NCBI RefSeq assembly: GCF_000269605.1
Contig: NZ_AKCI01000001.1
Location: 1,116,001 to 1,180,000, forward strand
Reading direction: 5' to 3'
Length of the DNA stretch: 64,000 nucleotides
Source: Scardovia wiggsiae F0424
GTDB taxonomy: Bacteria > Actinomycetota > Actinomycetes > Actinomycetales > Bifidobacteriaceae
Of the stretch, positions 54,833 through 63,534 are shown one piece after another. The notes beneath the pieces were generated by a model. The model saw nothing but the letters and a program-made list of their open reading frames with translations. It searched no databases and was not told the origin of the DNA. The translations under genes and the position numbers were made by a program. Within the stretch, counting starts at the first letter, position 1, and each line of letters starts with the position of its first letter.

Positions 54833-54909
54833 CGCGGGGTGGAGCAGCTCGGTAGCTCGCTGGGCTCATAACCCAGAGGTCCAAGGTTCAAATCCTTGCC
54901 CCGCTACCA
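54833..54909 (+). tRNA. Initiator tRNA-fMet, anticodon CAT
   Basis: 77 bases with encoded CCA. The acceptor has a mismatched first pair (C1 opposite T72), the three G:C pairs GGG/CCC in the anticodon stem (CTGGGCTCATAACCCAG) mark the initiator, and the T arm contains GGTTCAAATCC. Anticodon CAT is at 54867-54869. A short terminator-like stem GCCGCTGC / GCAGCGGC with TTTTCT (54912-54948) follows. Confidence 0.97.
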
Positions 54910-55147
54910 GTGCCGCTGCATCCACACGGAAAAACGCAGCGGCCTTTTCTATATCATCCAAAGTCCACGCGGTTCGTCCAGAAATTTTTTGGGATAACGT
55001 AGGCTGAGCAATGCCTAGAGCATTCGCAAGATCCTTCTGATGCACATCATTCAAGACCATTCCGATCTTAATATTGCTGCTTACAATCTTTTGCAATGAT
55101 CTGTGCGTATCTTTAGCTCGCAATAGCGTTGTATCTATTTCAGTCAT
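54866..55147 (-). CDS. XRE-type HTH regulator whose 3' end is antisense tRNA-fMet
   Basis: 93 residues with a helix-turn-helix HQKDLANALGIAQPTLSQKI (residues 36-55), likely a small DNA-binding repressor. The family fold ends near FFRVDAAALVAG; the remaining GQGFEPWTSGL is read from the complement of the tRNA-fMet 3' half, and the TGA stop is the complement of anticodon-loop bases (54866-54868). No ribosome site precedes the ATG, while TA-rich -10-like hexamers end 5-12 bases upstream, so the mRNA may be leaderless. It also reads across the tRNA terminator. Low GC and a paralogue divergent to it (55237) point to horizontal origin. Confidence 0.7.
   Translation of the reverse strand: MTEIDTTLLRAKDTHRSLQKIVSSNIKIGMVLNDVHQKDLANALGIAQPTLSQKISGRTAWTLDDIEKAAAFFRVDAAALVAGQGFEPWTSGL
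54912..54948 (+). terminator. Terminator of tRNA-fMet
   Basis: Stem GCCGCTGC / GCAGCGGC with a 16-base loop followed by CTTTTCT on the plus strand. It lies inside the antisense HTH reading frame. Confidence 0.6.
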
Positions 55148-55376
55148 ACTATAAAATATAGCATATACCTATATACAAATAGCTCAACACACCATTATAT
55201 TGCTTTAATCTATATTTCATATTACACTATATAGCTATGAGCAATATTCTAAAGCTAGAAGCGATAATAGGTCGCAGAATTGCAGGCGAAATGGCGATGA
55301 ATGATATTAATCAGGCTCATGTTGCTGAAATACTACATATTTCTCAGCCTACGTTATCCCAAAAAATTTCTGGACG
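54975..55376. repeat. Perfect 34-bp inverted repeat within two HTH genes
   Basis: The 34 bases at 54975-55008 are the exact reverse complement of 55343-55376. Each copy encodes QPTLSQKISGR, the recognition helix, in its own gene. Outside the repeat the two genes are clearly diverged. Confidence 0.9.
55200..55237 (+). promoter_or_regulatory. Leaderless promoter of the rightward HTH gene
   Basis: TTGCTT (55200-55205) and TACACT (55223-55228) are 17 bases apart. The ATG lies eight bases after the -10, so transcription should begin at or within two bases of the start codon; no ribosome site exists. Confidence 0.6.
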
Positions 55377-55461
55377 TATTCGTTTTTCTGCTCAAGAGAT
55401 CGCAATTCTTTCTGATCTTTTTGATGTTTCTGCTGATTTTTTGCTCGGCAAAAGTGACTAG
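55237..55461 (+). CDS. Small XRE-type HTH regulator
   Basis: 74 residues: INQAHVAEILHISQPTLSQK is the helix-turn-helix, followed by SGRIRFSAQEIAILSDLFDV and an end FLLGKSD typical of XRE domains (VSADFLLG). It faces the other HTH gene across 89 AT-rich bases, like a Cro/CI-type pair, and shares the recognition helix with it down to the nucleotide level. Expected to bind the same operator. Probably accessory (GC much lower than the core genes). Confidence 0.8.
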   Translation: MSNILKLEAIIGRRIAGEMAMNDINQAHVAEILHISQPTLSQKISGRIRFSAQEIAILSDLFDVSADFLLGKSD

Positions 55462-55956: not shown

Positions 55957-56138
55957 GCTATAAGGAAACATAAGAATAACATAATACCCCTCTTCCCCTT
56001 CGGGGATATTCCCTCCACAGGGGGGGACACCCACATCCGATAGATGAGGATAATAGGTTTGAAGATGAGGTGTTGTGGAAGGAAATGAGATGGACTTTGA
56101 TAAAAACTCTAATAATAATACGTATGTAATACATGTAT

Positions 56139-56179
56139 ATTACAATAGTATTGCGATTGTAATGCAATCGTGGTACACT
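56139..56179 (+). promoter_or_regulatory. Promoter and operator of the toxin/antitoxin-like pair
   Basis: TTGCGA (56151-56156) and TACACT (56174-56179) with a 17-base spacer. Within the spacer lies CGATTG-N5-CAATCG (56154-56170), and overlapping it ATTACAAT / ATTGTAAT (56139-56146, 56156-56163). Such symmetric repeats across a promoter fit autorepression by a ribbon-helix-helix dimer. Confidence 0.6.
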
Positions 56180-56233
56180 CACCTTTATGTTCATACCACA
56201 GATACAACAGAACAGTGATACCAAGGGATTATC

Positions 56234-56539
56234 GTGAGAATCATCGTGTTAGACACGATACAAGAACGTCATCCCCACATCAGCAAAAAGGATGTGATCA
56301 GCGCGTTCCATAGTGTCTATATAACAGTCCAACGCGAAGATACCAATGGATCAGAAACACCATGGATCGCTATAGGGCTAGACGCTCACGGTAGAGACAT
56401 GGAAATATGTTACGTGCAGAAAAATTCCACAATCATTATCTACCACGCCCTCACCCCGGTCACAAAAAAGATGCTTAACGAAATCAACTACTTAAAACAG
56501 AAAGGACACTACTATGAACGACCAAGAAATACTACATAA
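56234..56539 (+). CDS. Toxin-like small protein upstream of an RHH antitoxin
   Basis: 101 residues from GTG 56234 with AAGGGA six bases upstream. RIIVLDTIQERHPHISKKDV, WIAIGLDAHGRDMEICYVQK and IIYHALTPVTKKMLNEINYL resemble in layout small RelE/BrnT-fold toxins (conserved GxDxxGR-x-ME and a C-terminal HALTP), but no exact family can be named. It overlaps the following RHH gene by 26 bases. The pair shares one promoter. No catalytic residue can be proved from sequence alone. Confidence 0.6.
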   Translation: MRIIVLDTIQERHPHISKKDVISAFHSVYITVQREDTNGSETPWIAIGLDAHGRDMEICYVQKNSTIIIYHALTPVTKKMLNEINYLKQKGHYYERPRNTT

Positions 56540-56786
56540 GTACGGATTAAGCGACGAATGGGTCGAAAAGGATAGCGCCCGAGTAGAAGATGAAACCCAG
56601 TCAGATAATCTCACCGGTGTTTACTACTATGGGCTGCCACCCGAGCACAGGGAAAACGATGAACTGGTCACTCTCAGCGTACGTATCCCGCACAGCCTCA
56701 TGGAAGCAGCTACACAAGAGGCAAAAAAGTATCATTTAACCCGCAGCGAATACGTACGTCGCGCCCTCATCCAAGCCCAAGGATAG
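56514..56786 (+). CDS. Ribbon-helix-helix (CopG-like) antitoxin candidate
   Basis: 90 residues. The C-terminal part DELVTLSVRIPHSLMEAATQ and KYHLTRSEYVRRALIQAQG is a ribbon-helix-helix DNA-binding domain; the N-terminal 50 residues are acidic (EWVEKDSARVEDETQSDNLT) and would be the toxin-binding arm. The arm is N-terminal and the DNA-binding domain C-terminal, the reverse of many CopG/ParD antitoxins. Likely autorepressor of the operon through the palindrome upstream. Confidence 0.7.
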   Translation: MNDQEILHKYGLSDEWVEKDSARVEDETQSDNLTGVYYYGLPPEHRENDELVTLSVRIPHSLMEAATQEAKKYHLTRSEYVRRALIQAQG

Positions 56787-56807
56787 CCCAGAACCGCTTC
56801 AGCTTTC

Positions 56808-56855
56808 TGTGTGGGGTAGGGTGCCACGATGTTTCATGGCACCCTACCCCACACA
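56808..56855 (+). terminator. Perfect 19-bp hairpin after the RHH gene
   Basis: Arms 56808-56826 and 56837-56855 are fully complementary with a 10-base loop, 20 bases after the RHH stop. No T run on either side. Likely ends the toxin/antitoxin transcript or stabilises its 3' end. Confidence 0.65.
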
Positions 56856-57382: not shown

Positions 57383-58105
57383 ATGATTGACAGCTCACAG
57401 CAGAACACACCTATACAGCCTGAGCAGCAGGACGGGCAGCAGTACAACGGAGACGACGGCCAATTCAGCCAGCCCACATATGCTGTGCCGCAGCCGGGGC
57501 AGGGTTCTCCCTCCCCCGCCCAGCCTTATGCAAATCAGCCTTCCCTAGGCCAGCTCTACCCCAATCAGCCATATTCCGGCCAGCAATCCCAGCCCGCTCA
57601 GGCGCAGCCTTCTGCTGCCTATCCTGCCCAGCCGACAGGCCCTTATTCCGGTGCGGCAGGCGGACCTGCGGGAGCAGATATGGTCTACTGGGAGGCGAAA
57701 GGGTACTATTACGCCAACAATAAGTTCCCCGCATCGCCGGCGGCATTCGCCGTTATCGGCTCCACCCTCCTTGTCACCAAGGCAAACTATTTCCTTATCG
57801 CTATGGGCCAGACGTTCGGCCTGCTCGGCGCTTTATTTCATCATGCCGCAGCGGGAGCTGTAAAAACTGCTGCGGATCCGGAGAAAATCATCCTCTCCGC
57901 TCCGGCCCAGAATATCCACAGTATTACCGTGCAGTCAAGCTTCACTAAGTCACCCGGCTTGCTGGTTACTCTGACGGATGGCTTCACTTTCCATATCGGT
58001 TCGAATTACCTGCTTTTCGGCGGCGCAAAAAGGGCACTTGCGGCCGTCCGCGACCCGCTCAGCGCAGCCAATCCTAACATCATTTTCAGTGATGGGAAGA
58101 ATTAA
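57383..58105 (+). CDS. Protein with Pro/Gln-rich N-terminus and PH-like C-terminal domain, function unknown
   Basis: 240 residues. Residues 1-95 are disordered and repetitive in Gln, Pro, Tyr and Ser (YPNQPYSGQQSQPAQAQPSA), a pattern common in actinobacterial envelope-associated proteins. Residues 100-240 form an ordered domain (YYYANNKFPASPAAFAVIGS, YFLIAMGQTFGLLGALFHHA, FTKSPGLLVTLTDGFTFHIG) resembling a PH/GRAM-like beta fold with one hydrophobic stretch. GAGGAAGG site before ATG. Converges with the next gene. Confidence 0.65.
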   Translation: MIDSSQQNTPIQPEQQDGQQYNGDDGQFSQPTYAVPQPGQGSPSPAQPYANQPSLGQLYPNQPYSGQQSQPAQAQPSAAYPAQPTGPYSGAAGGPAGADMVYWEAKGYYYANNKFPASPAAFAVIGSTLLVTKANYFLIAMGQTFGLLGALFHHAAAGAVKTAADPEKIILSAPAQNIHSITVQSSFTKSPGLLVTLTDGFTFHIGSNYLLFGGAKRALAAVRDPLSAANPNIIFSDGKN

Positions 58106-60636: not shown

Positions 60637-63534
60637 CTACCCTGCGTATGCTTCCTTCCCGCCTTTGCGGCGCAATGCGAGTATAATCCCCGCAGCAAGA
60701 AGGGCTGTTCCTGCGATTGTTATGGCCCATAGGCCTGTGCCTGTCCTGGCCAGATGTGGTTTCTTCGGGGCTGGAGGCACTGTTGGAGGAGTAACCGGAG
60801 GCGTTGGAGGCACCACCGGGGTATGCGTATTCGTTACCGTAAACCCGGAAGCCATATCACCGGAGATCGTCGACGTATACCCGTGCGGAACGCTGGTTTC
60901 CTTCACCGTATAAGTAATGGCTTTGCCTGAAGCATTCTTATCCAAACCACCCCAGGTATGCTTCCAGCTGTTAGCCGCATCCAACGTGACCGGATCACCG
61001 GAAGCCTTCCCATCCGCATACAGCTGCACAGACACAGAAGACGGACGCGACCCATCCTTATTATCCTGGTCTTTCCACTTTTTCTCCACGGAAACAGAGG
61101 TTTTCTCTGTCTTGTGGGTATTAGTGATAGCCGTACCATCAATCGTGGTCTTATACCCCTCAACAGGCTGTTCAGACACCGTATAGGTTATCTTCTTACC
61201 ATCCTTAAACTGCGGAATGCCTTCAAACGAATACTTCCAGCCATTAGCAGCAGTAACCGTCTTACTCTGGATCTTCTCACCATCAGCCAGAAGATCCACC
61301 GTGATAGACTTCGGCCGCACACCATCCTGGTCATCATTATCATCCCAAGCCTTCACACCACAAACAGCAGTCACTCCCGGCGTGTGCTTATTAGTAATAG
61401 TGAATCCGGAAGCAGCATCACCTGAAGTCTCGGAAGTATACCCTTCAGGGATGCTGACTTCCTTCACTGTATAAACAATAGCCTTACCGGCAGCATTCCT
61501 ATCCAGATCAGACCAGGTGTGCTTCCAACTGTTAGCAGCATCCAACGTGACCGGATCACCCGAAACCTTCCCATTAGCATACAACTGCACAGACACAGAA
61601 GACGGACGCACACCATCCTGATTGCTGGCATCACTCCACTTCTTTTCCACAGAAACAGAAGTCTTCTCCACTTTATGGGTATTCGTAATAGTGAATCCGG
61701 AAACAGCATCACCTGAAGTCTCAGAAACATACCCGTCAGGGACATTGACTTCCTTCACCGTATAAACAATAGCCTTACCGGCAGCATTCTTTGCCAGATC
61801 AGACCAGGTGTGCTTCCAGCTGTTAGCAGCATCCAACGTGACCGGATCACCCGAAACCTTCCCATTAGCATACAACTGCACAGACACAGAAGACGGACGC
61901 ACACCATCCTGATTGCTGGCATCACTCCACTTCTTTTCCACAGAAACAGAAGTCTTCTCCACTTTATGGGTGTTGGTAATATTGCTCCCGTCAACCGCAG
62001 AAGTATAGCCATCTACTGGTTCTTCAGCGACTGTATAGGCGATCTTCTTGCCGCCCTTGGACTCAGGAAGGTTCCCGAAAGAGTACTTCCACCCGTCTGC
62101 AGCAGTCACCGTCTTACTCTGGATTTTTACACCATCAGCCAGAAGATCCACTGTGATAGCCGCGGGACGCTTTCCGTCCTGGTCATTACTGTCATCCCAT
62201 TTTTTCTCGCCGGACACTGATATCAGCTTTGTATTGACGGCATTCTTAACAACAGCCTTTGCATTGTTATTGAGGTCATCCGCTGTTACTTTTATAGGGG
62301 TGGTATCCAGCTGATACCCGGCTGGAGCTGTGACCTCAGTGATCGTATAGTCGTCACGGAGCAGGTTGCCGATGTGGCCGTTACCGGAAGCATCTGTTGT
62401 GATAGTGCCCACAACTTCTTTCGACCTGTCACGCACGACTTTGAATACAGCACCGGCAAGTGCAGCACCGTTATCATCCTGCTTATGGACCCCTACGGAA
62501 TAGTTATATCCATTGGCTTCCCCCGATGCGGACTGCCAGATGAAGTTATTCGTTGACTTTTGTGTTTCGTTCAGCCCGACAGCCGTTTCCGATGCACTGT
62601 TCCTGAACGCCTCATGGTTGACAGGGTGATGTCCGATTTTGGCCTTATAGGAGATAAGGAACCCTTCGCCCTTGACATCGCCGAGGCTGATAGTGAATTG
62701 CGTATTGTCGGCATTGAAATTGATTTTCGCAGAGCTGGTTACATCCGTAGCATCCTTTATCTCCCACTGGTTCCTCTCATTCCTGATGAACCTGCCTTTC
62801 CTGATGTGGAAGCTTTCCGGGTCAAAAGTCATGTCGGGAGTAGCAGCAGTATCTGAAAGGACAACATTCTTCAGAGTCTCGCCTATAGCATTGATACGGA
62901 CCCAATAATTGATTGCATCTGTATTTGCATCGGTGACCCAGCCCCATTTTGCGAGCCTTTCCTGCGGATGGTCGCCCCTGGGGCCTGTGAAATGGATCTT
63001 GCCGCCGTTGACGGGGATGCTTGTTTCGCCGACCTGTATACGGAAGGGGATGTCTGTTTGTGTATGTACTTTAGCGCTGTCTACTACAAATGCCGCAGTA
63101 ATTTTCCCAGTGATATCAGAATTCTTTTCTACATAGTCTGTATATGTCAGGACCAGCTTCTTCAAAGTGCTGTCTATAACTGCATGCGCAACCACTTTCC
63201 CGTCTGCGGAATATACATCGAATGCAGATGATGTTGAAAAACGCAGCTGCTCAGGCAATGAAACCATACTGGTATCCCCTGTATGGATCTTGTTATTGGG
63301 CAGCTTGAAGTCAAGATTAAGCGAGTACGGATCAGGGGTAAGCTGTGTTGCCTCGTTGCCCTTGGAATCTGTAATCGATACTTTAGTAACTATATTGTCA
63401 GATATCACTGCTGCTGAAGCCGCAGTTTTCGGCAGGAGTGAAAGCATCATAGCGAGAGCTATCAATACTCCCCAGGCCAATGCGGACATATGTTTCAGCC
63501 CGCTGAACTGTTTTTTCTCCCCGGTAGGGCTCAT
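60637..63534 (-). CDS. Cell-wall-anchored adhesin with SpaA and five Cna-B domains, LARTG sorting signal
   Basis: 965 residues. Signal peptide residues 1-41 (ALAWGVLIALAMMLSLLPKT, cut near ASAA). Residues 45-335 are two immunoglobulin-like ligand-binding domains of the Cna/collagen-binding type (FTGPRGDHPQERLAKWGWVT, NYWVRINAIGETLKNVVLSD). A SpaA-type domain follows (346-431, GAALAGAVFKVVRDRSKEVV). Then five Cna-B repeats at about 437-523, 527-620, 624-717, 720-806 and 810-903. Repeats 2 and 3 are almost identical, also in DNA, with a 291-bp period. A proline spacer (VVPPTPPVTPPTVPPAP), LARTG (928-932), a membrane helix and a KGGKEAYAG tail end the protein. LAxTG is the motif preferred by class E sortases; no sortase gene is in the window. 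AGAAAGG site before ATG. Confidence 0.93.
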   Translation of the reverse strand: MSPTGEKKQFSGLKHMSALAWGVLIALAMMLSLLPKTAASAAVISDNIVTKVSITDSKGNEATQLTPDPYSLNLDFKLPNNKIHTGDTSMVSLPEQLRFSTSSAFDVYSADGKVVAHAVIDSTLKKLVLTYTDYVEKNSDITGKITAAFVVDSAKVHTQTDIPFRIQVGETSIPVNGGKIHFTGPRGDHPQERLAKWGWVTDANTDAINYWVRINAIGETLKNVVLSDTAATPDMTFDPESFHIRKGRFIRNERNQWEIKDATDVTSSAKINFNADNTQFTISLGDVKGEGFLISYKAKIGHHPVNHEAFRNSASETAVGLNETQKSTNNFIWQSASGEANGYNYSVGVHKQDDNGAALAGAVFKVVRDRSKEVVGTITTDASGNGHIGNLLRDDYTITEVTAPAGYQLDTTPIKVTADDLNNNAKAVVKNAVNTKLISVSGEKKWDDSNDQDGKRPAAITVDLLADGVKIQSKTVTAADGWKYSFGNLPESKGGKKIAYTVAEEPVDGYTSAVDGSNITNTHKVEKTSVSVEKKWSDASNQDGVRPSSVSVQLYANGKVSGDPVTLDAANSWKHTWSDLAKNAAGKAIVYTVKEVNVPDGYVSETSGDAVSGFTITNTHKVEKTSVSVEKKWSDASNQDGVRPSSVSVQLYANGKVSGDPVTLDAANSWKHTWSDLDRNAAGKAIVYTVKEVSIPEGYTSETSGDAASGFTITNKHTPGVTAVCGVKAWDDNDDQDGVRPKSITVDLLADGEKIQSKTVTAANGWKYSFEGIPQFKDGKKITYTVSEQPVEGYKTTIDGTAITNTHKTEKTSVSVEKKWKDQDNKDGSRPSSVSVQLYADGKASGDPVTLDAANSWKHTWGGLDKNASGKAITYTVKETSVPHGYTSTISGDMASGFTVTNTHTPVVPPTPPVTPPTVPPAPKKPHLARTGTGLWAITIAGTALLAAGIILALRRKGGKEAYAG
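61511..61990 (-). repeat. Tandem 291-bp near-identical repeats encoding Cna-B domains 2 and 3
   Basis: The sequence beginning GACCAGGTGTGCTTCCA (plus strand) at 61511 recurs at 61802, with only scattered differences over about 190 bases. The period is 291 bp, exactly 97 codons, so repeat number can change without a frameshift. Confidence 0.85.

Follow-up and report, generated by a model that had tools for sequence, protein, structure and literature searches.

A short two-gene unit on the chromosome of Scardovia wiggsiae F0424 raised the question of whether it constitutes a toxin-antitoxin operon and, if so, to which family its toxin belongs. The unit lies in a 64,000-nt stretch of contig NZ_AKCI01000001.1 (positions 1,116,001 to 1,180,000), referred to here as the window, and all coordinates below are those of the window. 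An earlier note had described it as a toxin/antitoxin-like module with an operator buried in its promoter. The two co-directional ORFs were confirmed at the positions given there, and the locus comprises the following features:

56125-56170, no strand assigned: candidate operator array of three overlapping inverted repeats on TGTAAT/ATTACA half-sites
56125-56144, no strand assigned: inverted repeat 1, TGTAATACATGTATATTACA, missed by the earlier note
56139-56163, no strand assigned: inverted repeat 2, 10-bp arms with 1 mismatch
56154-56170, no strand assigned: inverted repeat 3, CGATTGTAATGCAATCG, within the -35/-10 spacer
56151-56179, plus strand: tentative promoter TTGCGA-17-(TGG)TACACT, 8/12 consensus matches
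56223-56227, plus strand: candidate ribosome-binding site AAGGG, 6 nt 5' of the GTG start, read from the sequence
56234-56539, plus strand: putative toxin gene, GTG start, 101 aa, predicted RelE/BrnT (BECR) fold, relative of Mycobacterium tuberculosis RelS
56514-56517, plus strand: ATGA, in most relatives the 4-nt stop/start overlap; the toxin frame of the window pair is offset at this point and does not end there
56514-56786, plus strand: putative antitoxin gene, ATG start, 90 aa, predicted helical N-terminal arm and C-terminal ribbon-helix-helix (RHH) domain
56808-56826/56837-56855, plus strand: perfect 19-bp hairpin, 10-nt loop, no T-run

The first protein had been called RelE/BrnT-like, and a structure prediction with no toxin-like fold had been named as a finding that would speak against the module. 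The AlphaFold model of the protein (pLDDT 89.5, pTM 0.80) has the BECR fold. Its best solved structural match was 7vd7 (VIA Z 7.7, rmsd 3.6 over 85), followed by BrnT 3u97 (VIA Z 6.3, rmsd 2.6 over 71); M. tuberculosis RelE1 was matched with VIA Z 5.0. BrnT, RelE, MqsR, YoeB and HigB were all among the matches, every Z being below 8. Foldseek of the same model gave no match below E 0.001, so that, with VIA Z below 8, the fold match alone is moderate. When the 51-row family profile was compared with solved proteins, chain C of 9SDC, RelS, was matched at E 1.6e-6, and it was the sole significant match, the next one having E 1.2. RelS was not among the fold matches; the fold library ends in April 2026 and the RelS paper dates from June 2026. 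The assignment to the BECR fold is firm because the structure matches agree with the profile match to RelS; the model predicts the RelE/BrnT (BECR) ribonuclease-toxin fold with good confidence. The proposed likeness was therefore upheld by both kinds of search, the profile leading to RelS and the structure to toxins of the RelE/BrnT superfamily. A single-sequence PDB search with the relative L095 gave only a lectin repeat match, which was discarded.

The sole Pfam match of the window toxin was BrnT (PF04365), with E 0.1 and 13.3 bits versus a gathering cut-off of 34.5, and this model touched just 2 of the 51 family members. NCBIfam and PADLOC gave no match for the toxin, and PHROGs returned an unknown family only (E 0.0023). 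Weak similarity to DUF4258 (PF14076) was seen in 2/51 members (best E 0.0013, below the cut-off) and also in RelS-like relatives; DUF4258 is listed among the BECR toxin families as antitoxin-first (A/T) (PMC11980606), in contrast to the toxin-first order of the window pair. Matches of 9/51 members to PF18993 (Rv0078B-related antitoxin, best E 0.0099) were taken as chance, being weak and of opposite role, and so were the weak DUF433 matches of family members. The toxin belongs to an unnamed actinobacterial family without a model in Pfam, NCBIfam, PHROG or PADLOC; the literature search found no paper describing the family and no experiment on any member.

RelS-RelI (Rv2663-Rv2664, PDB 9SDC) is a newly described system of M. 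tuberculosis, in which RelS is a proven toxin of RNase T1/RelE-like fold that cleaves 16S rRNA in the anti-Shine-Dalgarno region; its residues K9, H10 and H64 are critical, and it is neutralised by an N-terminal helix of the antitoxin placed over the catalytic residues (PMC13284704). The window pair shares with it the toxin-first order and a small BECR-fold toxin. In the toxin family G48, R54, E57, H71, A72, T74 and P75 are invariant (51/51), K or R occupies position 78 in 51/51, and H13 and R12 are found in 49/51 and 47/51 members, respectively. The window toxin keeps R12-H13, R54, E57, H71 and K78/K79. RelS H64 aligns with the invariant H71, and K9-H10 corresponds to R12-H13, offset by one residue; KHG as in RelS is present in the relatives L092, L093 and L095. 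RelS R69 and BrnT R72 (BrnT toxicity resides in K16, H17 and R72, as cited in PMC13284704) are not matched in the gapless alignment, where 50/51 family members have P at the position. The window toxin is also longer than RelS, and its model has an extra C-terminal helix that BrnT is said to lack (PMC13284704). Two of its residues are unusual: T8, where 41 of the 42 rows not gapped at this position have R, and V76, where P stands in 50/51. Since the PF04365 score fell short, the toxin was not filed as a BrnT member, and since the antitoxin differs, the pair was not filed as RelS-RelI; within the RelE/BECR superfamily the toxin was classed as related to RelS and BrnT.

The second protein proved to be built as previously described, with the RHH domain at about residues 52-87, modelled with matches to Arc, CopG and FitA, and two predicted helices before it (residues 3-9 and 14-25). 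E25 of this arm is invariant (46/46). The C-terminal position of the DNA-binding domain, which had been singled out, is real but not unusual, as BrnA likewise has a C-terminal RHH and in brnTA, too, the toxin gene comes first (PMC11980606); BrnT-BrnA of Brucella abortus (PF04365, 3U97) thus resembles the window pair in gene order, RelE-like toxin fold and antitoxin build. Residues 2-24 of RelI are needed for binding and neutralisation of RelS (PMC13284704), and by this analogy the N-terminal arm of the window antitoxin may be its neutraliser as well. RelI itself, unlike the RHH antitoxin, is an HTH/ClpC2-like protein for which no DNA binding is known; a RelI-type partner was looked for at the window locus and an RHH protein was found instead. 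No inverted repeats were found upstream of RelS-RelI, whereas the window family has a conserved operator motif.

The promoter, previously termed a consensus one, turned out to be weak. Its -35 box TTGCGA (56151-56156) and -10 box TACACT (56174-56179) are 17 bp apart, and the TG of an extended -10 helps; a scan for consensus promoters requiring 9/12 matches did not list it and detected no promoter excess in the region. The assignment is tentative because 8/12 is below the scan cut-off. The palindrome reported between the two boxes does lie in the spacer. The operator suggested on this basis was retained in that the repeats overlap the promoter and the half-site is conserved, but the array does not begin at 56139; it starts upstream, at 56125.

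The half-site TGTAATAC (at least 7/8 matching) occurs 4 times in the 130-bp leader of the window pair versus 0.59 expected, and 63 times versus 6.7 expected over the 50 leaders of RHH-bearing pairs. It is present as TGTAATAC/GTATTACA in 36/50 of these pairs, the other 14 being without a recognisable half-site. In a split-half test the motif derived from one random half was reproduced in the other (15-18/25 versus about 3 expected). Leaders of pairs whose antitoxin is devoid of RHH had the half-site in 0 of 11 distinct cases; 12 were counted, L019 and L052 being one locus. The association of half-site with RHH gave a Fisher p of 1e-5, to be read as about two events because the RHH-less set consists, on the tree, of one clade and B. 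indicum. A perfect TGTAATAC-N0-4-GTATTACA site is found nowhere in the genome, which makes the operator of the window pair an imperfect one. Taken at sequence level, these data suggest that the operon is probably autorepressed through the RHH domain.

Relatives of the toxin were found in 63 genome contigs, all of Actinomycetota, in Bifidobacterium, Gardnerella, Galliscardovia, Coriobacteriia, Actinomycetaceae and Propionibacteriaceae; within Bifidobacteriaceae they occur in 52/189 genomes and 7/16 genera. In the loci inspected (genome contigs and family loci) an antitoxin ORF stands directly downstream of the toxin gene. Among 100 toxin matches in the 189 Bifidobacteriaceae genomes 69 were followed directly by an antitoxin-profile match, and of the remaining 31 many were in genomes carrying the RHH-less type of partner. 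Eight of the 50 best antitoxin matches were solitary, with no toxin match adjoining the RHH homologue. The same seven Bifidobacterium plasmids were recovered with either the toxin or the antitoxin as query. On pBC1-type plasmids of 2.5-3.7 kb the pair adjoins replication genes, and pBBKW-2, the NBRC 114494 plasmid and pBC1 (L032, L033 and L034) carry little besides these and the pair; it is also present on B. longum plasmids of ~170-198 kb. The toxin ORF of pBC1 lies at the record end and is absent from the gene table. The pBC1 "CopG family regulator" and the RHH genes of the B. longum megaplasmids encode homologues of the window antitoxin (40-42 % identical), plasmid-borne rather than chromosomal, with a toxin homologue directly upstream. 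On one B. longum megaplasmid (L031, 4267-6148) the pair directly precedes a HipA-domain gene, and the two may be toxin-antitoxin systems in tandem.

Homologues of the first gene without any RHH partner had been named as evidence against the module, and they do occur, in one bifidobacterial clade (L014, L022, L024-L028, L052, L067, L072, L083) and in B. indicum (L070), which looks like a separate decay. Antitoxins of the clade keep the N-terminal arm, carry another C-terminus instead of the RHH and are not preceded by an operator half-site. With the arm kept and the operator missing, these partners speak for an antitoxin in two parts and not against the system. The weaker Actinomycetota profile matches resemble RelS, with KHG/RHG near the start and VIHAM..R near the end. 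Among these distant relatives, few in number and judged by eye, most readable partners are RHH proteins and just one (L132) is of HTH type, RelI-like in kind; an RHH partner may thus be the usual one, with RelI as an alternative.

The 26-base overlap of the two genes reported before was confirmed (56514-56539). About 36 of 61 relative loci, read off by hand, use the 4-nt ATGA overlap, and in the window the toxin frame runs several more codons past it, which adds a tail of ~10 residues beyond the usual end. From the sequence the overlap probably arose when the toxin frame slipped by one base close to its 3' end, with ATGA left as a relic junction, and would not be a family feature. The last ~10 residues were modelled with low confidence (pLDDT 40-59), lie outside the folded core and are probably disordered. 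The perfect 19-bp hairpin said to close the unit was also verified; its 84-nt stretch folds with -44.7 kcal/mol, and no T-run follows it. It is single-copy in the genome, so a dispersed repeat was rejected. An analogous 17-bp hairpin is found 3' of the pBC1 antitoxin gene, and for a bifidobacterial megaplasmid stem-loops without a U-tract have been reported to terminate moderately transcribed units (PMC10832533). The window hairpin is probably a transcription terminator.

The pair is flanked by a small Cro-type gene (55237-55461) and a gene at 57383, with an ATP synthase operon and tRNA-Met nearby. It was not found in the two other species of the genus, in which the flanking ATP synthase genes and a gene of the 59408 type are present; being without a counterpart in both sister species examined, it was regarded as accessory on this chromosome. 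A phage origin was rejected, as no phage protein was matched and all DNA matches listed were to the tRNA-Met stretch. Several other features of the surroundings were recorded. A Cro/C1-type ORF (54866-55147, minus strand) runs antisense into the 3' part of the tRNA-Met gene (54833-54909, plus strand), its C-terminus GQGFEPWTSGL being read from the complement of the tRNA gene, and a sister-species relative (L109) aligns with it through this end. A 38-bp inverted repeat (97 %; 54975-55012 and 55339-55376) is common to the two small HTH genes on opposite strands and covers the recognition-helix codons (QPTLSQKISGR) of both, which suggests duplicated or recombining regulators. At 60637-63534 (minus strand) a 965-aa surface protein could be read by eye; it contains repeats of a Cna-B-like module, some of them almost the same in sequence, and has a LARTG-type sortase motif at its C-terminus.

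The conserved pairing, the BECR fold and the operator half-site that tracks the RHH domain together indicate that the window pair is very probably a genuine, and probably a functional, type II toxin-antitoxin operon, its toxicity and target being deduced. It consists of two small, adjacent, co-directional and overlapping genes conserved as a pair; its antitoxin is an RHH protein, and the promoter contains operator-like repeats to which binding is predicted. The earlier reading as a toxin/antitoxin-like module thus gains from the fold, the RelS profile match and the downstream antitoxin ORF in the loci inspected. What we infer for the pair, that is toxicity, RNase activity, target, neutralisation, repression and biological role, can be outlined as follows. 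The toxin, a BECR-fold (RelE/BrnT/RelS-like) protein, would most likely be a translation-blocking ribonuclease. The helical arm of the antitoxin is predicted to run over the toxin's basic active site (R12, H13, H71, K78), with E25 as the likely acidic contact. The C-terminal RHH dimer would repress the operon by binding to the promoter-overlapping TGTAATAC/GTATTACA half-sites, and the hairpin would end the transcript. On plasmids the pair would probably serve as a post-segregational stability module; on this chromosome it is accessory.

Two views of the target can be held with similar reserve. The toxin may possibly act as RelS does and cut the 3' end (anti-Shine-Dalgarno region) of 16S rRNA, considering the significant profile score and the correspondence of the critical H64 and K9-H10 with H71 and R12-H13; however, R69 is not conserved, the RH motif is shifted by one residue against KH, and RelE-superfamily toxins of one fold differ in targets (mRNA, rRNA). 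The pair could equally be an ordinary BrnTA, an mRNA-degrading BrnT with its BrnA, too diverged for the Pfam model. The gene order, the C-terminal RHH, the Pfam match and the second-ranking 3u97 suit this reading, but the score far below the cut-off, the few members touched by the model and the much stronger RelS profile match make it a tentative one.

An inactive, decayed remnant is improbable: T8 and V76 are unusual and the toxin frame reads through the relic ATGA, but neither frame is interrupted, the catalytic-type residues persist, the operator and ribosome-binding sites show no damage, and the tail that differs falls outside the folded core. It is very improbable that the RHH protein is instead a CopG-like plasmid copy-number or partition regulator with an accessory small protein and no toxin-antitoxin pair. 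A CopG-family annotation is given to the RHH protein, encoded near the replication gene, on pBC1-type plasmids, but the upstream protein has a toxin fold with a conserved basic/His site, the pair resides on chromosomes of many genera, and the RHH-less partners retain the arm.

For the genuine toxin-antitoxin operon favoured here, a wider and rather doubtful proposal is that the family joins the 16S rRNA-cutting RelS group with BrnA-like RHH antitoxins, and that one bifidobacterial lineage dropped RHH and operator together and kept the neutralising arm. If true, this lineage would be a natural uncoupling of antitoxicity from autorepression. The RHH-less clade lends itself to a comparison that shows what autorepression contributes. 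The family brings RelS, hitherto known together with RelI, close to a group in which most antitoxins are RHH proteins. The family, without a library model or a paper found, is yet recurrent in Bifidobacteriaceae and Coriobacteriia. The pBC1 replicon is used for vectors, and for this and other Bifidobacterium plasmids the results suggest what their "hypothetical protein + CopG" pairs may do.
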